A DNA stretch of 35,597 bases from the NCBI GenBank assembly GCA_035653615.1, contig DASRBN010000026.1, positions 1-35,597 on the forward strand, read 5' to 3'. The stretch comes from Ktedonobacteraceae bacterium. GTDB lineage: Bacteria > Chloroflexota > Ktedonobacteria > Ktedonobacterales > Ktedonobacteraceae. The notes below the pieces were generated by a model, which searched no databases, was not told where the DNA came from, and worked only from the letters and a program-made list of their open reading frames with translations. This document shows positions 17,352 through 31,689 of the stretch, piece after piece; positions within the stretch are counted from its first letter, which is position 1, and each line of letters starts with the position of its first letter. Made by a program: the position numbers and the translations under genes.

Positions 17352-18023
17352 TCACACTTCTACCATATGGGAAAAGCGGAATTTGCGTTTTGTCTTCTCC
17401 GGCAAAGCGCAGATACGCTGTGGCAGCGTGAAATGGGGGTGCGTATCCAGCAGGTACAGCAGGGCGCGCACGATCATGGGATCAAAACTTCGCCCCGCCC
17501 CCAGGAGCAAACGCTCGCGTGCCGCTTCCTCAGAAAGCGCAGCCTTGTAAGGCCGCTGCGATGTCAGCACATCATAGACATCCGCGACGGTCAGAATACG
17601 GGCGCTTAACGGAATCTCTTCACCTTTCAGGCCGGTGGGGTAGCCGCGCCCGTCCCAGGCCTCGTGATGATAGAGTACCGTTTCGACAAAAAAGGGATGC
17701 ACATCGCAACCGATCAGAATACGCGCGCCTATAATCGGATGCCGCTCCATCTTGCGCCGTTCTTCATCGGAAAGGGCCTCTGATTTCATCAGAATATCGT
17801 TGGCGATCCAGGTCTTTCCAAGGTCATGCACCAGCGCCGCCAGTGCCAGATCGCGCGCCTCTCGCCTGCTCCATCCCAGGTAACGTGCCAGTCGTTGCGC
17901 GTATGTAGCGACGCGCCGCGAGTGTTCATACGTCACAATGTCGCGTTCCTGAATGCTTTTGGCGAACGAGAGCAGCACCTGCCGGTTCTCGGCCTCTTGA
18001 TCAAAACGTTTTATTCCCACCAC
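17352..18023 (-). CDS. HD-GYP domain phosphohydrolase
   Basis: This 223-residue cytoplasmic protein consists of little more than an HD-GYP domain, a class that includes cyclic di-GMP phosphodiesterases. Metal and signature residues are present: His34 (YEHSRRVA), HD at 66-67 (LVHDLGK), His95 (RHPIIGARIL), His119-His120 (LYHHEAWDGRGYP) with the GYP at 127-129, and Asp148 (LTVADVYDVLTSQRPYK). No sensor domain is attached, so regulation would come from a partner. The start is GTG, at 18023 or 18020; GGAG lies 5-8 bases upstream. It converges on the ABC transporter, with only 2 bases between stops. Confidence 0.92.
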   Translation of the reverse strand: MVGIKRFDQEAENRQVLLSFAKSIQERDIVTYEHSRRVATYAQRLARYLGWSRREARDLALAALVHDLGKTWIANDILMKSEALSDEERRKMERHPIIGARILIGCDVHPFFVETVLYHHEAWDGRGYPTGLKGEEIPLSARILTVADVYDVLTSQRPYKAALSEEAARERLLLGAGRSFDPMIVRALLYLLDTHPHFTLPQRICALPEKTKRKFRFSHMVEV

Positions 18024-18554: not shown

Positions 18555-19949
18555 ATGGAAGAAGATATGCTGCAAAATCCTGCTGTAACGCAGGAAAATA
18601 GCGAAGATGCATCGCGCAATGGTCATGGGCAAGGTGATATCGTTACCATTGTACTCACGGCCGGTAATCGTCTTGGACACACTGCTTTCAGTTTCACTCA
18701 AAATCCTCATAAACGCGAGGAGGGACGGCAGCGCCTGCGCCAGGCTTTCCAGCGGGTAACAGACTTTGCCGCCGGGCAGGGCGTCGACCTGTTTGTACAG
18801 GCTGGGGATCTGTTTGATTCGACCAATCCCGACGAAGAAGACCGCAGTTTTGTGGCCGAACGCCTGGCACAACTGCGCCAGGCTGGAGTTCGTGCGTTTG
18901 CGCTTGGCGGCGTGCTTGATACACCCGCCACTGCATATGCCACTGTGGATTCCGGTAGCTATGCCGCCCACGCTCTGCCACCTCAAATCAGTTATGCCCG
19001 CCTGGGCGCGCTGCAGTATTTTCCGCCGGCAGGGAGCGTACCTCCGGCAAATGGACGTGCAAGCGAGCCGGCAACGCGAGGCGCTTATCTAGAACCGGTC
19101 ATGGTGAATGTGCGCGACACACTGGTTGGTATCTGTGGCCTCGGCATTCAGGCAGATCAGGATGGGGACCCCCTGGCACATGTGCATGTAGATAGCGATA
19201 TCGAGCGTGCTGCCATCCCCCTGCTCATATTGCATGCCCCGCTTGAAGCCATGCCCACCGGCGCTTCTGGTGGAACCTCAATGGTCACCAACGCCAGCAT
19301 CGCAAGCCAGACCGTGTTCAAATATATCTTAGCTGGTTACCACCAGAGCTATCGTCAATTGCATATCGGCCAGGCTGATGTTGTCGTAGCCGGGACTACG
19401 CAGCGTGTTGACTTCAATGACCCTGACGACGAGCCTGGCTTTGTCTTCCTCGGAATAGCCGCCGGTGGCATTCGCTGGTGCCAGCATATTCCTGTAGATA
19501 CCCTCAAGCTGCGTCGCCTGCGCATCAACCTGGCTGAACTCTGGGCGCAGGATTCAAATAGCGAGGATAGCTCCGTTACAGAGCGCATTCTCCAGCTTCT
19601 CGAGCCGCTATGCAGCCCGGAGACGCTGGTGCAAATCCAGCTTACAGGTGAGGTGACGCGCAGCCAGTATCATCAACTGGATTTAAATCGGGTGCGGCAT
19701 TTTGGCGAAGAACGTTGTTTTGCCCTGGAAGTCGACGAAAGCGGCCTGCTGTTTGCGAGCGACGAATCGCGACTTGCGACCGGTGTAGCCGGTTCTAACG
19801 CATTTGAAGAACGCATATCTGTTCGTGAGGAACTTATTATCCTTGCCGGCGAATGGATTGCCGCTGTCCAGGATGAGCAGGAGCGGCAAGCCTTGCAGAT
19901 GACAAGGGAAGAATTGCTGGCAGCCTTCTCCTCTGGAGTAAACCTATGA
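18555..19949 (+). CDS. Degenerate Mre11/SbcD-like metallophosphoesterase, probably nuclease-deficient
   Basis: The 464-residue protein follows the Mre11/SbcD/YhaO plan: an N-terminal phosphoesterase region (about 30-320), then a capping and C-terminal partner-binding part. Only some metal ligands survive. Motif I (usual T-A-D-x-H-L-G-H) reads TAGNRLGH (35-42), losing Asp and His. Motif II GDLFD is intact (Asp85). Motif III (GNHD) reads GGVLD (118-122), losing Asn and His. Motif IV His227 (LLILHAP) is kept. Motif V (G-H-x-H) reads AGYHQSYRQ (260-268). GTTQRVDFNDPDDEPGFVFL resembles the strand after motif V in true Mre11, which anchors the alignment. It is probably a non-catalytic adaptor. GAGGGG precedes the ATG. 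The stop overlaps the next gene as ATGA, so the pair is coupled. Confidence 0.75.
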   Translation: MEEDMLQNPAVTQENSEDASRNGHGQGDIVTIVLTAGNRLGHTAFSFTQNPHKREEGRQRLRQAFQRVTDFAAGQGVDLFVQAGDLFDSTNPDEEDRSFVAERLAQLRQAGVRAFALGGVLDTPATAYATVDSGSYAAHALPPQISYARLGALQYFPPAGSVPPANGRASEPATRGAYLEPVMVNVRDTLVGICGLGIQADQDGDPLAHVHVDSDIERAAIPLLILHAPLEAMPTGASGGTSMVTNASIASQTVFKYILAGYHQSYRQLHIGQADVVVAGTTQRVDFNDPDDEPGFVFLGIAAGGIRWCQHIPVDTLKLRRLRINLAELWAQDSNSEDSSVTERILQLLEPLCSPETLVQIQLTGEVTRSQYHQLDLNRVRHFGEERCFALEVDESGLLFASDESRLATGVAGSNAFEERISVREELIILAGEWIAAVQDEQERQALQMTREELLAAFSSGVNL

Positions 19950-22900
19950 TCATCCTTAAGCATTTGACAACTGAACAATTCAGACTCTTGCGCGAGATCG
20001 ACCTGTACTTCCCACAGCGCGGAAGTATCCTCATCCAGGGACCGAACGAGGCAGGCAAATCAACGATCTTTGAAGCTATCTACTTCGCGCTTTATGGCGA
20101 ACCCCTGACTTCCCCGTCTCAACGCGGGAAACGCCGGGACTCGGATCGCGGCCTGGACGATTTAATCCACTATGGCGAGCCTTCCGCTATTGTGTCTCTT
20201 GATCTCTCGATAGGCGTTACATCATTATCGATCAGGCGCACTATTGAGCGCGGTAAGGGGCAGCAGGTCAGCTTGCGAGTGCAGCGATTGGGCATGCCGG
20301 AAGAGTCACCGGTTACGAACCTGAAGGCCGCCAATGAGCGTATCATTGCCGAATTGGGGCGCATCGATGGCGAGACGCTGCGCAATTCCTGCCTGATTGA
20401 GCAAAAAGGACTGTCACGACTGGAGCAAATGGATGGTCGCGAGCGCGAAACAGTGTTGCGCAAACTGCTTGGCCTGGAAAAGCTTACCCGCCTGTCCGAA
20501 CAATTCAAATTAACTGAACAGGATGAGGAACTTCTCAACGAGAGTCGCATGCGTCTAACATTGGCCGAAGTGCAGGCGCGTATCCCTGAGCTAAGTATGC
20601 AATTGGGAGACATTGAGGCCGCGCTCGACGCCGTCTCCATCACCGAACACCTGGCCGAGATAGACCGGCAAGAGGTAGAAATCGATGAACAGCAGCGGGC
20701 GCTCGAACAGATCGAGGTGCAGCGTCGCGAACTGCGCGCGCGCCAGAGTCGCATTCAACAGTTGAAGAAAGCCGATGCTGTACTTGGCGAAATCATGGCA
20801 TCATATGATGCCATCGCCGAGGCCCAGCGTTCTCTGCCCGAAATTGAACGCCAGCTTGCCGAACTCGAACTCCGCAGGAGCGAAGAACTGCCCGCGCTCG
20901 AACAACGGGTTCGCGATTTATCCGAACTTTCTCGCTCCTTCGGAACGCTGGAGCGTATGGCGGGCGACCTGCTGGCGGTCGTCAACACCATCAAAGAGTT
21001 GGAGCAGGAACTCAAAGACTATGAACAGGTGCAGGCAGATATTCAGGAACTGGACGAGAAAATTATTCACGCCCGCCTGCGCGTCGAAGAAGCTCAACAG
21101 GCCCGGCATGAGATGGAAGAGCAGCGGCGCTCGGCAAAACCGCAGTTAGAACAGCGACTCCAGCGCCTGCGCCGGTTAGCGCAACAACTTCATGCTCTGC
21201 GGCAGGCAGAGGAAGAATACCGGCAGATACAGGCCCGGCAGGGATCGCCTCAGGAACAGATAGAGCAACTCAAGAAGGTTGAGCGAGAACTGCAAGAAAG
21301 CGAACAGGAACTCGCGCTTGTGCAGAATGAAGCGCAACAACTACAACAGCAGGCCGATGACATCGAGAAGCGCTGGCGCAAGCTCAGTTTGCATCGCCAG
21401 CTGGAAGAGTGGCAGCGCTTAAAAGGCTTGATGAAAGGCCTGACTGAAGCCGAGCAACATGTCATGGCTGCTCACCAGCAGCAGGAGCGATTGACACTGG
21501 AGGCCCTCGCTCAGCGCCGCGCCGCCACTATCCAGCTTGGTATTACTATCGCCTGTGTTGTTCTGTTCCTGCTCTGTGGTAGTGCAGCGCTTGTCGAGGC
21601 CCTGAATAAGTCAATCATTTTCGCTACCATCGCCGGTTTAGCCGCTATTTTGTTAGCTGCCAGCGCCGGCTACAGCTATCAGACGTACAGCAAGATACGT
21701 AAAAAGGAGCAGGAGGCCGACCGGCAAATGCAGGAGGCCATCAACCAGGTAAGCATGATGGTGGCTGCGCGCGAAACTGCCATTCGCATGAGCGGGGGCC
21801 AGGGGGGCAATCAGGAGGCGCTTGAGCAGATAGAACACGAGATTCGCTCGCTTGGTGGCGCTGTACCACGCTCCCTGGAAGAGGCACAGCACCTGCTGCA
21901 ACAGGTTTCTACCTCTGACGAGAGCCTTGCCGATATCCAGCAGCAAATGAACGAGAGCCGTAACAAGGCACTGGCGGCTCGCAACCAGGTCAATGTGACC
22001 ATGGAAGCGGTAGCCGCGGCTCGTAAGGAACGTGCGCGCCTGCAAGCGCTCGGCAACCGGGAAAGCCAGGAAGTCATTCATGAAAAGCTACAGGCTAAGC
22101 AGGCGGCCATCGGGCAAATACAAAACGAGATTGTAGTTGCCGCCGGTAAAGAGGGTCTACCATTGCCTGTAGGAGAAACGTTCAACGCGCCCATGGAAGA
22201 CGGGCAAGAGCAGGTCAAACCCTATGAGAGCGTGGTTGAAGATGCCATCAAATCAACCGAACGCGAAATAGCCGTACTGGATGGTAAGCTGTCATCTCTG
22301 CCGGATCTTGCTACCCAGGTCAAAATCTATCAAGATGCCCTGGATGTCTTGCTCGCGCGAAAACAGGCACACCTGGAGCGTTTGGAGCGCTACCAGGACA
22401 ATCTCCCTATGCAACGAATAGAACGCGCCCGCGAACAACAGCTTACACTGCGCGATGCGCTTCGCAGTTTGCAGGATTCCTTGCGTAAGCGTGTCCAGCC
22501 GCTTGGCTTCGCCTTTGGTCAGGCGGCAATCAACAGTGCTGAATCCGGCGCTCGTAAGCAACTGGAATTACTACATATCACGCTCGATAGCAAGATAGAG
22601 CTTGAGAATCGCCATGCTTTCTATACCGCTCTCCTCAAGGAACGCCAGGAAGCCCTATCCGCCGGTTATCGGCAACTGGCAAAATTCAGCACCACCCTTG
22701 GCAGCTGGATCGTTCCTCCGAATCCATTTGCCGAAGCCCTCGTGGCTCTACGCAGCCGCTGCCAGCGCGAGATAGAGCAAGAGGGTGAGGAAAATATCTT
22801 GCGCGAACTCGAAGGCTTAAGGCTCCAGGAGGGCGCCTCGCGAGTGAAAATCGAGCTATGCCGCGGAGAGATTGAAATCGCCCAGGAACGCATTGCCACA

Positions 22901-23815
22901 ATACTGGCACAACGCAACCGGCCACCCGCGAAAGGCTTCACCCTTGTTGATATCGCGGCAGTCTGGCCCCTCGTTGGCGAATACTCGCCGGAGCAGCGCG
23001 CCCGCCTTGAAGAGGATCTGGCGCGCGTCGACCAGGAATTGCACCAGCTAGAACAACAGGAGTTGGAATTGAGCACGCAACTCCATACGGGCGGTGAAAA
23101 GTTAGATCTCGAGCTGGCTCGCAAGCATTTGGAGCAGCAAGAACGCAGTTACCAGACCAAAAAACGCGGCGGTCTGCTGATCGATGCCACATGCGAGCGC
23201 ATCATGCGCAAGATGATACCGCGCATAGAATACTTTATGCAGCAGCTACTCCCCCTGCTGACACGCGGTCGCTACCATGATGTGCGCCTGGCAACAGAAC
23301 CGGAAGAGGGGATTGCCAGTGGAGGGCCATTCCAACTGAGTATATGGGAGCCTTCTGCCGGAGAATATATCGCGAAATCGGCTCTTTCGGGCGGCGCCGC
23401 CGATCAAATCTCGCTGGCGCTGCGATTAGCGTTTGCCATTGCTGCCTTGCCACGCGAACTCAGCGCCGCGCCAGGATTTCTGCTCCTCGACGAGCCATTT
23501 GGCTCTTTTAGCCGTGACCGCATGCAAGCCCTGGCGCAGCTTGTTACAGGCGATGCACTCGGCCAGCACTTTGAGCAGGTGCTGTTTATCTCGCACGACA
23601 GCGCTTTCGAATCTACACTGTTTCCCTATCACGTCTCTATTGAGGATGGCGCCATTGTCGATAGCAATCTCTCCATGAGAGCAGGAGATGCTCAGCATGC
23701 CTCATCCCAGGGAAGCAATCAATCTGGTCCCTACCCTCGCCGGTTCACCCGGCCATTAGAGGCTGATACCTCTAGCAATGGGACAACACCATTAACGGCT
23801 TCACAATACTCATAG
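19946..23815 (+). CDS. SbcC/Rad50-like SMC ATPase with central membrane hairpin
   Basis: The 1289-residue protein has a split ABC ATPase head joined by long coiled coils. Walker A GPNEAGKST is at 32-40. Near the C-terminus come signature SALSGGAADQISLALRLAFA, Walker B GFLLLDEPFGSF and H-loop VLFISHD, all intact. Residues ~190-525 and ~580-1090 are glutamate/glutamine-rich coiled coil. Between them, about residues 530-577, are two hydrophobic helices (LGITIACVVLFLLCGSAALV and IIFATIAGLAAILLAASAGY). Rad50 carries its CxxC zinc hook at the coil apex; no CxxC is seen here. The layout recalls Bacillus YhaN, partner of YhaO. The coils should project from a membrane-held apex. The last ~60 residues are low-complexity. 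It overlaps the Mre11-like gene by ATGA. DNA as substrate is inferred. Confidence 0.85.
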   Translation: MIILKHLTTEQFRLLREIDLYFPQRGSILIQGPNEAGKSTIFEAIYFALYGEPLTSPSQRGKRRDSDRGLDDLIHYGEPSAIVSLDLSIGVTSLSIRRTIERGKGQQVSLRVQRLGMPEESPVTNLKAANERIIAELGRIDGETLRNSCLIEQKGLSRLEQMDGRERETVLRKLLGLEKLTRLSEQFKLTEQDEELLNESRMRLTLAEVQARIPELSMQLGDIEAALDAVSITEHLAEIDRQEVEIDEQQRALEQIEVQRRELRARQSRIQQLKKADAVLGEIMASYDAIAEAQRSLPEIERQLAELELRRSEELPALEQRVRDLSELSRSFGTLERMAGDLLAVVNTIKELEQELKDYEQVQADIQELDEKIIHARLRVEEAQQARHEMEEQRRSAKPQLEQRLQRLRRLAQQLHALRQAEEEYRQIQARQGSPQEQIEQLKKVERELQESEQELALVQNEAQQLQQQADDIEKRWRKLSLHRQLEEWQRLKGLMKGLTEAEQHVMAAHQQQERLTLEALAQRRAATIQLGITIACVVLFLLCGSAALVEALNKSIIFATIAGLAAILLAASAGYSYQTYSKIRKKEQEADRQMQEAINQVSMMVAARETAIRMSGGQGGNQEALEQIEHEIRSLGGAVPRSLEEAQHLLQQVSTSDESLADIQQQMNESRNKALAARNQVNVTMEAVAAARKERARLQALGNRESQEVIHEKLQAKQAAIGQIQNEIVVAAGKEGLPLPVGETFNAPMEDGQEQVKPYESVVEDAIKSTEREIAVLDGKLSSLPDLATQVKIYQDALDVLLARKQAHLERLERYQDNLPMQRIERAREQQLTLRDALRSLQDSLRKRVQPLGFAFGQAAINSAESGARKQLELLHITLDSKIELENRHAFYTALLKERQEALSAGYRQLAKFSTTLGSWIVPPNPFAEALVALRSRCQREIEQEGEENILRELEGLRLQEGASRVKIELCRGEIEIAQERIATILAQRNRPPAKGFTLVDIAAVWPLVGEYSPEQRARLEEDLARVDQELHQLEQQELELSTQLHTGGEKLDLELARKHLEQQERSYQTKKRGGLLIDATCERIMRKMIPRIEYFMQQLLPLLTRGRYHDVRLATEPEEGIASGGPFQLSIWEPSAGEYIAKSALSGGAADQISLALRLAFAIAALPRELSAAPGFLLLDEPFGSFSRDRMQALAQLVTGDALGQHFEQVLFISHDSAFESTLFPYHVSIEDGAIVDSNLSMRAGDAQHASSQGSNQSGPYPRRFTRPLEADTSSNGTTPLTASQYS

Positions 23816-24388: not shown

Positions 24389-24429
24389 GAAATGGAATGA
24401 TTTTGGCATAGATGAGAGTAACATTTCTT

Positions 24430-25083
24430 ATGACAGACAAACTTGATCAGGCAGCATCCGCTGCGCAACAATACCTGGCGCTCAAACATGCGGCGCGCGA
24501 ACGGGCTTTACCCAAATCGCGTACAGCCATCCGTTACTGCGCCAATAGCATCCGCGCGACGCACCGCCAGGAATTTCAAGCTGCGGCGGAACTTCTGCGC
24601 CACGCCAATATTCTGCTGGCCGAAATGAGCGCTGATTTGCAGGAACAGCAGGATATCTATTTCGCGGGATTTTTGCAGGACGCGCAGAAGGAATATGCCG
24701 AAGCCGCAACATTTCTGGCCCTGGCGCAACATCGACCCGTTCCGCTTGCCTCTGAACTCTCCATCGACTGGATTCCCTATCTCAATGGGCTGGGTGAGAC
24801 CGTTGGAGAACTTCGCCGCTACCTGCTCGATCAATTGCGCCGCGGCAACATCGAGACATGCGAAACCCTGCTGGGTTACATGGATGATATCTATGCCCTC
24901 CTCATCACCATCGACTACCCCGATGCCATTACCGGTGGCCTGCGCCGCACTACCGATGCTGCTCGCGGTATCCTCGAAAAGACGCGCGGCGACCTCACCA
25001 TCGCCGTCGGGCAAGATCAATTACAGCAAACCCTGCTCACATTGCAGCGCGAACTAGAGAAATTGCGCCTCGATTCCCTGTAG
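24430..25083 (+). CDS. Translin family protein
   Basis: Translin and its partner Trax are helical proteins that bind single-stranded nucleic acid; Trax-type subunits are Mg-dependent ribonucleases. From ATG 24430 (217 residues) the family pattern is clear: KSRTAIRYCANSIRATHRQE (29-48), the EYAEA motif with Glu88 and Glu91 spaced like the catalytic glutamates of Trax, YLNGLGETVGELRRYLLDQL (117-136), and DYPDAITGGLRRTTDAARGI then LEKTRGDLT (162-190). It is therefore more likely a catalytic, Trax/archaeal-type subunit than a pure binder. An ATG at 24412 would add 6 residues; neither start has a strong ribosome site. It stands alone between the SMC-like pair and dnaN. Confidence 0.88.
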   Translation: MTDKLDQAASAAQQYLALKHAARERALPKSRTAIRYCANSIRATHRQEFQAAAELLRHANILLAEMSADLQEQQDIYFAGFLQDAQKEYAEAATFLALAQHRPVPLASELSIDWIPYLNGLGETVGELRRYLLDQLRRGNIETCETLLGYMDDIYALLITIDYPDAITGGLRRTTDAARGILEKTRGDLTIAVGQDQLQQTLLTLQRELEKLRLDSL

Positions 25084-27987: not shown

Positions 27988-30900
27988 TTAACTAACCGTC
28001 AAGCTGACCGTCACCGTGACCGCATTGCCAGAAGAGGGCGTAATATCGACCGTGGCCGAGTAGGTGCCCGCGGACAAACCCGTTACATCCACCGAGAAGG
28101 TGAGCGAGGAACTTTGACCAGCATCGTCGCTGCCACTGGTGGGTGAAACGGTCAGCCAGCTTTGAGAAGGTGTATCGGTCGTCCATGTGAGCGAGTTGCC
28201 GCCGGTGTTGGTAATCGTAATGGCCTGCGTATCGGGGTTGACGCCCACATTGGCGGTGAAAGCCAGGCTGTCTGAACTGAGCTGCATGGCGGGTGGCGCG
28301 ATGTTGATGGTGATGGGAACGGTGACCGGGCTGCCCGCTACAGCATTACCCGTAATCGGATCAATGGCGCTTATGGTGGCGCTGGTGGTGTAGGTTGTGC
28401 CGCCCTGCAAGCCGCTGGCATCGACAATCACGTCGATGTTGGTGCCGCTTCCTCCCGCCAGGCCCGTGCCGGATGTTGCCGAGAGCGAGACGAAGGATGG
28501 CGCGTTGGGGTCCAACGCCGCCGTCCAGTTCAACGGTTCGCCGCCGGCGTTGTTGATGGCAATCTGCTGGTCGCTTGATCCTGTATCAACGTTGAACGTC
28601 AGCGCGCCCGGACCTGCGTTCAGCACGGGCGCCGCTATCACATTCGTGGTTATTCCGACCTGCTGCGGGCTGCCCTCAATCGTCATACCGTTACTATCCA
28701 CCGCTGCCAGCGAAACGGTGCCGTTGTATGTTCCGGCAGAGAGCGAGCCAGATGTTACCGCGACCGTAAATGTAGCGCTATTGCCGCTCGTTACCTGCGC
28801 CGACGATGGCGTGACCGCGAGCCAGCTTCCTCCATCGCCCGTCGTGACCGTTGGCGTAATCGTTACGCTACCACTGCACGTGCCGCTGACGGCAATGCTG
28901 AATGTCTGCGTGGCGGGGTTCAATCCTACCTCGGCGGAATAGGTCTCGCCGCTATCCGATGGCGCTTGCAACATACATGGCGGCTGCACTGTGAGCGTAA
29001 TGGCAATCGTTTGCGCTGTACCCGCCTGCTGCCCGCTGACACTGTCAACTGCCGTGATCGTAACCGTGCCCGCATAGCTGCCGGCGGATAGACCGGCAAG
29101 CGAGACGCCGACGTTGGTGGACGAGGAGGCCGAGAGGCTGACCGTGCCGCTGGCGGGTGAGGCCGACAGCCATGTGCCACCGGAAGAGGTATTGACGCTG
29201 GCTGTCCAATTCAGCGCGTGCGCGCATGTCCCACTGGCGGCGATGTTCACAGCCTGCGTGGCGGGGTTTGCCTGACCAACAATGCCCGTGAAGTTGAGCG
29301 CGAGCGGAGTCGCTCCAATAGCGCACGGCGGTTGCACGACAAAGGTAACCGGAATCGACTGCGGGCTGCCCATTGCCGGATTGCCCGATCCATCCGTCGC
29401 GTTAAAGGTGATTGTTCCAGTGTAGGTGCCGGGGGAGAGCGATTGTAACAGTATAGCTGTAACGGTAATGCTGGCCGACTGACCGCTGGAAAGGCTGCCC
29501 GAGGTGGTTGAAATTGAAAGCCATGGTGCTCCTGTAGATGTTGTCGCCGAGGCATTCCATGCCAGCGTGCCTCCACCAGAGTTGGTGATCGTAGCGACCT
29601 GGGCAGGTGGGTTTACCTGGCCGTAGATGGCGCTAAAATTCATCGTCGCGGGCCCTACGCTGAGAACCGGTGTCGCGACCGGTGCCACGATCAGTGTCAC
29701 GGGTATAGTCTGATTGCCTGATTTTGTGCTGAAGATGAGCGCGCCCGTATATGTGGCAGGCGAGAGGCCAGAGCTATTGACGCTCACCTGAGGATAGGCC
29801 GGAGTTCTGCCGCTAGCCTGGTTGATGCTGAGCCAGTGCCCACCATTATTGGTTGTGACTGAGGCGTTCCACTGCATCGGGCTTGAACATCCCTGGCTAA
29901 GGCCCACATCGATGGTCTTGGGCCCCGGTGAGGGCTGCGAAGATACAGCGGTAAACGTCAGACTGCCCGGTGAGACCTGGACCGCGCATTGCGGTAGAAT
30001 GGTCAGGCTGACAAAGATCGATTGTGGGCTATCCTTTACCGGGTCCGGTCCTGTGCTGGAGAACGTGACGCGACCGCTATACGTACCCGGCAGCATCATG
30101 CTGGTATTCACGCCGATCTTTACCGCCAGGCTGCCACCTTTGCCTATGGTGCTGGATCGTGTCCCTACTACCAGCCAGTTTGACCCATCGTCGGTGGAAC
30201 TCGAGGCACTCCACTGCAAAGGTAGCAGGCCGGGATTGCTGATGGTGACGACCTGGGCCACCGGATTGGCGCCGCCATCTATGCCGGTGAAGGAAAGTAC
30301 GCCGGGCATGAGCTGGAGTACAGCTTCATGTTGGGGTTCGAGCGGCGTCACATTCATCTTGACAGGCAGCATTAATTGTCCGGCGTTCGATGAAAAGATC
30401 ACGTTGCCCTTATATACTCCCTGCTTCAGATTTGCGCGGTCTCCCGCAATGGTTACCTTCATCGGTTGGCCGGCCACAAAGGTGCCGCTATTCGGGCTAA
30501 GCAGCAGCCAGGGCTGCGTCGTGCCGCTTTGCCAGGAAATCGTTCCGCCGCCGGCATTATTCAGCGTAATCGCCATGGCGCTGTCGGTCGCCTGGTCGCC
30601 GGAACCGAGATTGAGGCTGCTCACCGAGATTTCCAGGTGCGGTGGCTTTGAGGCGCTTTTGCCGGTCACATTAATCGCAAAGCTGGCCGTTTTATGGGTG
30701 GCAGCATCTTCTGCCTGTATGGTATGCGAACCGGACAACCATGTTGGATCGACCGTGACCGTGTCGCTGAAATTACCTGAGCTATTGGTGGTTATAATAT
30801 GCGAGCCTGCGGTATCGATGACCGGAATATGCGTATCGCGAGTCAGGCCTACGCGCCCATTGGGGCTGAACCTGGTGCCGCGCAGCGTAATGGTTCCCCC

Positions 30901-31689
30901 AAGCGCAATGGTAGAAGGAGTGACCTGCAACGAGAACGCGCCTTGTCCAGACGACGATTGTGCCGTGGGCGAGCGCCCCAGGACACTGACGATGCCAAAA
31001 ATTCCGCCCAGCAAGAGGGCTATAATCGCAAGCGTGCTTAGCCAGAAGAATAGCTTCGGCTGGGGCCGCCTGGGTGGTGGCTGTTGCTGAACAGGTTGTA
31101 CGCGTTGCGTTGGCAGTACAGGTGGTGGAGTGCCGGGTGTGACAAGTGGCTCAAGTTGCGGTGGTGTGAGAACTGTGCTACGGTTCTTATTGCGGACAAC
31201 TTTATTCCAGGTCGAGAAAGGCCGCATCTCAGGTTGGTCATGAATGATACCATCCTCGCTGTCCATGAGGCGAGTTGAGAATGATATATCGTCGCCCGCG
31301 GCCAGGCGCTGCCACTGGCTGGGTGAGATGACCACAACTTCTTCGCCGGCGCGATTTCCTATTCGCTGCGTCTCTACATCCTCGTTGCCGGCATTGCCCG
31401 GCATAGCCTGAGTAGGGGCCTCTTCTTCCGCGGGCATAGGCTGCGTTGGAAGTTCCTCGTTCTCGCGTAGTGGGTAGAGACGATGTGATTTGAAGATGGC
31501 CGTTCGTCCAGAATCCGGAGCCTCTGGCGCATTAGGAGGGTTAGCCTGTTTTCCACCTGTAGGGACAGCGCCAGGCGCCTGTCCATCCATACCGGCTAGA
31601 GGCGCCACCAGGGGCAGTCCACATGCCGGGCAGTATTTTGCGATCCGGGGAAGCGGCTCAGCGCAATTTGGGCAGCTTATCATATTCAT
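27988..31689 (-). CDS. Membrane protein: zinc ribbon, single TM helix, Ig-like domain and about eight BACON-like repeats
   Basis: A 1233-residue protein. Residues 6-23 form a zinc ribbon (C6-PN-C9 and C20-PA-C23). A polar, proline-rich cytoplasmic region follows with four T-Q-x-(M/I/V) motifs at Thr82, 93, 107 and 194. One transmembrane helix spans 213-237. Outside, residues ~248-340 resemble an IPT/Ig-like domain (TPSTIALGGTITLRGTRFSP). Then come about eight BACON-like units of 90-110 residues, each with a 'NFSAIYGQVNPPAQVATITN' strand pair, 'W-L-S/T-I-S-P-x-S-G' and 'L-S-P-G-T-Y-T-G-x-I-x-F'. Such repeats usually bind glycans or build stalks. There is no signal peptide: the internal TM helix would insert it, N-terminus inside. 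Function unknown. GAGGG lies 7 bases before the ATG. The small membrane gene follows. Confidence 0.85.
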   Translation of the reverse strand: MNMISCPNCAEPLPRIAKYCPACGLPLVAPLAGMDGQAPGAVPTGGKQANPPNAPEAPDSGRTAIFKSHRLYPLRENEELPTQPMPAEEEAPTQAMPGNAGNEDVETQRIGNRAGEEVVVISPSQWQRLAAGDDISFSTRLMDSEDGIIHDQPEMRPFSTWNKVVRNKNRSTVLTPPQLEPLVTPGTPPPVLPTQRVQPVQQQPPPRRPQPKLFFWLSTLAIIALLLGGIFGIVSVLGRSPTAQSSSGQGAFSLQVTPSTIALGGTITLRGTRFSPNGRVGLTRDTHIPVIDTAGSHIITTNSSGNFSDTVTVDPTWLSGSHTIQAEDAATHKTASFAINVTGKSASKPPHLEISVSSLNLGSGDQATDSAMAITLNNAGGGTISWQSGTTQPWLLLSPNSGTFVAGQPMKVTIAGDRANLKQGVYKGNVIFSSNAGQLMLPVKMNVTPLEPQHEAVLQLMPGVLSFTGIDGGANPVAQVVTISNPGLLPLQWSASSSTDDGSNWLVVGTRSSTIGKGGSLAVKIGVNTSMMLPGTYSGRVTFSSTGPDPVKDSPQSIFVSLTILPQCAVQVSPGSLTFTAVSSQPSPGPKTIDVGLSQGCSSPMQWNASVTTNNGGHWLSINQASGRTPAYPQVSVNSSGLSPATYTGALIFSTKSGNQTIPVTLIVAPVATPVLSVGPATMNFSAIYGQVNPPAQVATITNSGGGTLAWNASATTSTGAPWLSISTTSGSLSSGQSASITVTAILLQSLSPGTYTGTITFNATDGSGNPAMGSPQSIPVTFVVQPPCAIGATPLALNFTGIVGQANPATQAVNIAASGTCAHALNWTASVNTSSGGTWLSASPASGTVSLSASSSTNVGVSLAGLSAGSYAGTVTITAVDSVSGQQAGTAQTIAITLTVQPPCMLQAPSDSGETYSAEVGLNPATQTFSIAVSGTCSGSVTITPTVTTGDGGSWLAVTPSSAQVTSGNSATFTVAVTSGSLSAGTYNGTVSLAAVDSNGMTIEGSPQQVGITTNVIAAPVLNAGPGALTFNVDTGSSDQQIAINNAGGEPLNWTAALDPNAPSFVSLSATSGTGLAGGSGTNIDVIVDASGLQGGTTYTTSATISAIDPITGNAVAGSPVTVPITINIAPPAMQLSSDSLAFTANVGVNPDTQAITITNTGGNSLTWTTDTPSQSWLTVSPTSGSDDAGQSSSLTFSVDVTGLSAGTYSATVDITPSSGNAVTVTVSLTVS
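31559..31584 (+). repeat. GTAGGGACAGCGCC repeat inside a coding region
   Basis: GTAGGGACAGCGCC followed by GGCGCCTGTCC is nearly palindromic. The first 14 bases also occur at 25080-25093, just at the translin stop codon. Here it lies in frame within the linker after the zinc ribbon of the large membrane protein. Confidence 0.6.

Follow-up and report, generated by a model that had tools for sequence, protein, structure and literature searches.

What does an Mre11-like protein contribute to its complex once the residues that bind its metals are gone? Mre11–Rad50 is a textbook nuclease complex, and point mutants have long fed a debate over how much of its work is structural. The question is raised by a locus in a 35,597-nucleotide stretch of DNA from a Ktedonobacteraceae bacterium (GenBank assembly GCA_035653615.1, contig DASRBN010000026.1, positions 1 to 35,597; this whole stretch is called the window below), where an earlier reading of the letters alone, the original prediction, had recognised an Mre11/SbcD-like pseudo-nuclease kept as a structural partner of a Rad50-like ATPase. 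We consider it probable, at about three chances in four, that the product of this gene is a pseudo-Mre11, which arose by stepwise loss and serves a membrane-anchored Rad50-like ATPase as its non-catalytic subunit.

Gene pair at the locus

The Mre11-like frame is open across 464 codons and is coupled by an ATGA overlap to a Rad50-like ORF, as had been predicted. Its family matches all lie under the cut-offs: NCBIfam sbcd reaches E 4e-7 and 30 bits, with the curated cut-off of 77.65 far above, NCBIfam Mre11_Halo reaches 7e-7, far under its own curated cut-off, and Pfam Metallophos scores 16.8 against a cut-off of 21.5. The gene order HD / mre11 / rad50 is syntenic throughout the family, and the genes of the locus are:

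17352–18023, − strand: HD-domain gene, divergent neighbour; a synteny anchor kept at the locus across the family and outside the complex
18555–19949, + strand: pseudo-Mre11 ORF (P0001), 464 aa; NCBIfam sbcd and Mre11_Halo, AF2 model match to Mre11
19946–23815, + strand: Rad50-like ATPase (P0002), 1289 aa; NCBIfam Rad50 2.4e-18, Pfam AAA_23 4e-9

Further along, an ORF at 24412–25083, between rad50 and dnaN, matches the Translin family below threshold (E 1.4e-4). This translin-like ORF and dnaN/recF were considered as part of the system and rejected, as this neighbourhood is not kept in relatives. Adjoining dnaN/recF, positions 27988–31689 encode a protein of 1233 aa that combines a zinc ribbon at its N-terminus with eight BACON_2 repeats and HYDIN-like Ig domains. 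A defence-system reading was also set aside: PADLOC matched the partner only generically, as SMC-like, and the Mre11-like protein not at all, and the reading is therefore without support here. A plasmid search gave only remote ATPase matches, and a literature search, for which subscription journals were mostly out of reach, found no paper on a bacterial pseudo-Mre11.

Catalytic site and fold of the window Mre11

The residue register was taken from an alignment to Thermotoga maritima Mre11 and 28 relatives, with catalytic residues given in P. furiosus numbering. In P. furiosus Mre11, metal 1 is bound by D8, H10, D49 and H208 and metal 2 by D49, N84, H173 and H206, while H85 is catalytic. Six of these eight residues are lost in the window protein by alignment (D8G, H10R, N84V, H85L, H206Y and H208Q), leaving only D49 (Asp85) and H173 (His227). 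The window positions equivalent to D8, H10, D49, N84, H85, H173, H206 and H208 are G37, R39, D85, V120, L121, H227, Y262 and Q264, and the motifs placed by this alignment are:

18663–18671, + strand: motif I, G37-N38-R39 replacing D-x-H (D8, H10)
18804–18818, + strand: motif II GDLFD, bridging Asp85 (D49) retained
18909–18920, + strand: motif III, G119-V120-L121-D122 replacing GNHD (N84, H85)
19233–19235, + strand: motif IV, His227 (H173) retained
19335–19346, + strand: motif V, G261-Y262-H263-Q264 replacing GHxH (H206, H208)

The residue calls of the original prediction (G-x-R, an intact GDLFD, GGVLD and a broken motif V) are right by this alignment, and its claim of a pseudo-nuclease is supported by the missing residues, the GNHD histidine among them. 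Of 49 columns in which 27 or more of the 28 relatives share one residue, the window protein departs in six, four of which are catalytic (D37G, H39R, H121L and H264Q); it also departs in nine of 104 columns invariant among 23 same-family orthologues, and three of these nine are catalytic (hypergeometric p = 0.004). The changes are concentrated on catalytic columns and are therefore not random drift. Judged by sequence, D85, H227 and possibly H263 are all that remain from which another two-metal site could be assembled, and these three may bind a single metal. At this level there is good support for loss of the nuclease site, and the protein would be expected to lack nuclease activity.

The fold has outlasted the site. 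An AF2 model of the window protein, built with 28 relatives (mean pLDDT 82), matches Mre11 over the nuclease and capping domains, with both the calcineurin-like phosphoesterase fold and the capping domain present; its VIA Z is 28.9 to human MRE11 (9q9j_E) over 335 residues and 27.3 to P. furiosus Mre11 (1ii7_A), bearing out the recognisable Mre11-like fold that had been predicted. The capping domain evolves faster, with a mean identity to other genera of 47% compared with 58–67% for the others. Two C-terminal helices of the model (423–437 and 441–462) align to the ends of Rad50-bound Mre11/SbcD chains, where the Rad50-binding hairpin of those chains lies, and they form a putative hairpin of this type, by which the window protein would bind its partner.

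19500–19775, + strand: capping domain, aa 316–407; AF2 model
19809–19937, + strand: C-terminal helical hairpin, aa 419–461, a Rad50-binding-type domain; AF2 model, part kept in the 76-aa ORFs of genus g3 described below

The Rad50-like partner

The partner keeps the motifs of an ABC-type ATPase (Walker A GPNEAGKS, signature LSGGAADQ and Walker B FLLLDEP). Pfam AAA_27 (PF13514) also passes its cut-off in this protein, a match that is unspecific and is found in 13 of 14 control genomes as well. None of the Rad50-like partners read has a CxxC zinc hook, and two hydrophobic helices stand mid-chain instead. An AF2 model of this region (pLDDT 87) shows a long helix, a turn of three residues (aa 554–556) and a helix running back, a layout that therefore makes the hydrophobic pair the tip of the coiled coil; the hairpin is predicted to insert into the membrane. 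In a fold search the apex model matched nothing but generic coiled coils, all at E of 0.001 or above.

20039–20062, + strand: Walker A GPNEAGKS; sequence
21518–21679, + strand: predicted transmembrane hairpin, about aa 525–578, at the coiled-coil apex; hydropathy and AF2 apex model
23510–23512, + strand: D-loop Ser1189, Asp in 20 of 20 relatives; alignment

In P. furiosus Rad50, the D-loop change D829N gives faster ATP hydrolysis and a weaker closed state (PMC7049730). The lost D-loop aspartate and the fast capping domain of the window pair fit a complex that has been freed from gating a nuclease, and they also fit slow decay.

Ligand loss among same-family orthologues

The window genome belongs to a group of Ktedonobacteraceae and relatives (f1) that includes Ktedonobacter racemifer, Dictyobacter and Thermogemmatispora. 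Orthologues were found by an alignment-based search of genome contigs, where a single-protein query had returned none. All 23 f1 orthologues have V, L or T at N84 and Y or F at H206, while H10, D49, H85, H173 and H208 are kept throughout and D8 in 22 of 23, the exception having Glu. Comparison of the altered residues in related genomes, the check proposed with the original prediction, thus separates losses shared by the whole family (N84, H206) from losses found in the window lineage only (D8, H10, H85, H208). The orthologues are intermediates that keep six of the eight residues, so that the ancestor lost N84 and H206 and the window lineage lost the other four later; these four private losses are known from the window genome alone, the nearest compared relatives standing at dS > 2. 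Outside this clade, the site is complete or nearly so at 20 further Chloroflexota loci of the protein family, of which two are paralogues inside f1 genomes; the departures are an Asp at H206 in three loci and a Thr at N84 in one.

The family-level form of the motifs (DNH / GDLFD / GGVHD / GYHH) may itself belong to an active variant nuclease, with pseudo-nucleases confined to the window and g3 lineages. We hold this tentatively, as a serious possibility a little short of even, and it is compatible with a pseudo-Mre11 in the window. The near-complete retention of the remaining six residues would be a strong constraint if catalysis were dead, but the two that have been replaced, N84 and H206, are both ligands of one metal.

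Reduction of Mre11 to its tail in another genus

In two species of another genus, g3 (G002 and G014), the search matches only the last ∼45 residues of the window Mre11. Both species have a 76-codon ORF between the HD gene and rad50, joined to rad50 by an ATGA overlap and 72% identical to window residues 419–461, such that the nuclease and capping domains are gone and the Rad50-binding-type tail is kept. A search of the g3 genomes for more of this mre11 gave no further match, barring a separate intact-type SbcD relative in one. Between the two species the ORF differs by eight synonymous and six non-synonymous changes and no indel, and the resulting ratio of 0.20 (dN 0.035, dS 0.177) indicates purifying selection. 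A C-terminal match in G040 (a 72-aa frame) was considered as a second mini-gene and rejected as a contig-end fragment.

On the Rad50 tree the window groups with Thermogemmatispora (98/97), and a clade of window and g3 is rejected (AU p 2.2e-7); the two advanced losses are therefore independent. Further loss has occurred twice, and the tail has stayed both times. In vitro, the Mre11 HLH on its own and the Rad50 NBD have served as a working complex (PMC7049730), so an Mre11 consisting of the tail alone can do as a partner. The role of structural partner that had been proposed for the window protein is supported by the synteny of the family and by this g3 tail, coupled to rad50 and under purifying selection, and we infer that role from them. 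Together these observations are strong evolutionary evidence that the partner-binding part of Mre11 is what evolution keeps.

Ligandless Mre11 in a second Chloroflexota order

In a second Chloroflexota order (families f13 and f26), a matching mre11-like gene is present in 24 of 24 genomes, 23 found by one query and the last by another. The site is gone in the 19 complete copies read and in one partial copy, and every copy except one has G or N in place of the motif I aspartate. At the loci L174–L188, L127, L133, L134 and L146 of these families, each genome read has a ligandless Mre11 coupled to a Rad50-like gene. The Rad50-like partners of f26 keep the P-loop in most cases; those of f13 have wholly lost Walker A, with the hydrophobic (TM) hairpin still there. 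Pairwise dN/dS is 0.18–0.44 for the Mre11-like and 0.15–0.28 for the Rad50-like genes, which indicates purifying selection. The losses of the window lineage are taken as separate from those in f13/f26 not from the tree, on which one clade of f1, f13 and f26 is not rejected (AU p 0.335) and the losses in f1 and f13/f26 may share a root, but because f1 orthologues still hold D8, H10, H85 and H208.

Intact relatives in the same genome

The genome of the window (G000) encodes two further Mre11 relatives with intact motifs, on contigs C37 and C19. An archaeal-type nurA-herA-mre11-rad50 operon (L042:3761–12070, on C37) pairs an intact Mre11 with a Rad50 of the TM-hairpin type; Ktedonobacter sp. SOSP1-85 has an operon like it (L041). 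An orphan SbcD/Mre11 relative, also with intact motifs, stands at L043, and this orphan is present in most genomes of the family. Elsewhere in the genome (L106:4533–8967, on C27), a canonical-type Rad50 overlaps a NurA-domain gene, and its SbcD-like partner is likely L043:5719–7122, on another contig. The intact relatives could supply the nuclease, and their presence therefore makes a dispensable nuclease in the window complex plausible.

The same relatives could instead mean that the window gene is in early decay: with two other Mre11 proteins covering the same task, selection on the whole complex would be relaxed, and the lost ligands would be its first visible damage. The faster capping domain and the D-loop aspartate lost in the partner speak for such decay as well. 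We nevertheless regard it as unlikely. Both frames are open, over 464 and 1289 codons, and invariant columns are kept in 95 of 104 cases in Mre11 and in 222 of 239 in Rad50. Distances to the nearest relatives are dN 0.32–0.34 against dS > 2, an average over the whole branch, and purifying selection acts on the g3 remnant, a parallel case, as well as on the pseudo-complexes of the other order. That the window Mre11 is still an enzyme, with another or a single-metal site made from D85, H227, H263 and their neighbours, is very improbable: D85 and H227 are kept, most of the family has the extra His263 in motif V and there are structures of S. pombe Mre11 with a single Mn in each site (4fbk title), but the window protein has kept neither the metal-1 ligands D8, H10 and H208 nor the catalytic His85, the change H84Q at the equivalent of H85 is by itself described as making E. 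coli SbcD nuclease-deficient (PMC6265447), and the whole domain is dispensable in g3.

Discussion

The residues were lost in steps. N84 and H206, both ligands of metal 2, went first, in the ancestor of the family, and three more ligands (D8, H10 and H208) went later in the window lineage together with catalytic His85, such that its two-metal phosphoesterase site would no longer form while the Mre11 fold persisted. Independently, genus g3 shed the nuclease and capping domains entirely and retained only the Rad50-binding-type tail. In the complex, the tip of the Rad50 coiled coil would sit in the membrane by way of the transmembrane hairpin, replacing the zinc hook, and at the far end the ATPase heads would hold DNA or other cargo, with the helical hairpin at the C-terminus of the pseudo-Mre11 as their brace. 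The complex would then act as an SMC-like membrane scaffold that does not cut. Tethering as its function, cargo included, is what we infer from this architecture.

Compared with known systems, the window protein resembles Mre11/SbcD in its fold, its capping domain, its C-terminal hairpin of the putative Rad50-binding type and its operon with a Rad50-like ATPase, and differs in the six missing catalytic residues and the sub-cut-off family scores. Its partner resembles Rad50/SbcC in Walker A, signature, Walker B and a long coiled coil, but lacks the CxxC zinc hook and has a transmembrane hairpin at the apex and Ser in the D-loop. YhaO/YhaN of Bacillus is also a pair of Mre11-like and Rad50-like proteins, to which the unspecific AAA_27 match of the window partner adds a likeness; YhaO is not known to have lost its metal site. 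A nuclease has become a scaffold elsewhere: the PolD DP1 nuclease gave rise to the scaffold B-subunits of eukaryotic polymerases, in which the catalytic residues are lost (PMC4996933). These subunits are likewise a calcineurin-like nuclease turned scaffold, whereas the window complex has an SMC-like ATPase partner, surviving intermediates and one genus in which the domain has been deleted.

On a wider scale, the chances seem evenly balanced that a class of membrane-anchored Mre11–Rad50 complexes in Chloroflexota has repeatedly been turned into non-catalytic scaffolds, by loss of ligands in the window, by deletion of the nuclease in g3 (the 76-aa Mre11) and, in the second order, by loss of the metal site along with the P-loop while purifying selection kept the TM hairpin. 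The core of such a class would be membrane tethering by a coiled coil, not cutting, and it would not always be driven by ATP. One locus offers a graded natural series, from a complete site through a half site and no site to no nuclease domain, in which the TM-hairpin Rad50 is constant. With this series a non-nuclease role of Mre11 becomes directly testable. The part of Mre11 that the series marks out as indispensable is its C-terminal Rad50-binding-type hairpin, and the series suggests that what the cell needs here is the part of Mre11 that binds its partner, not its nuclease.
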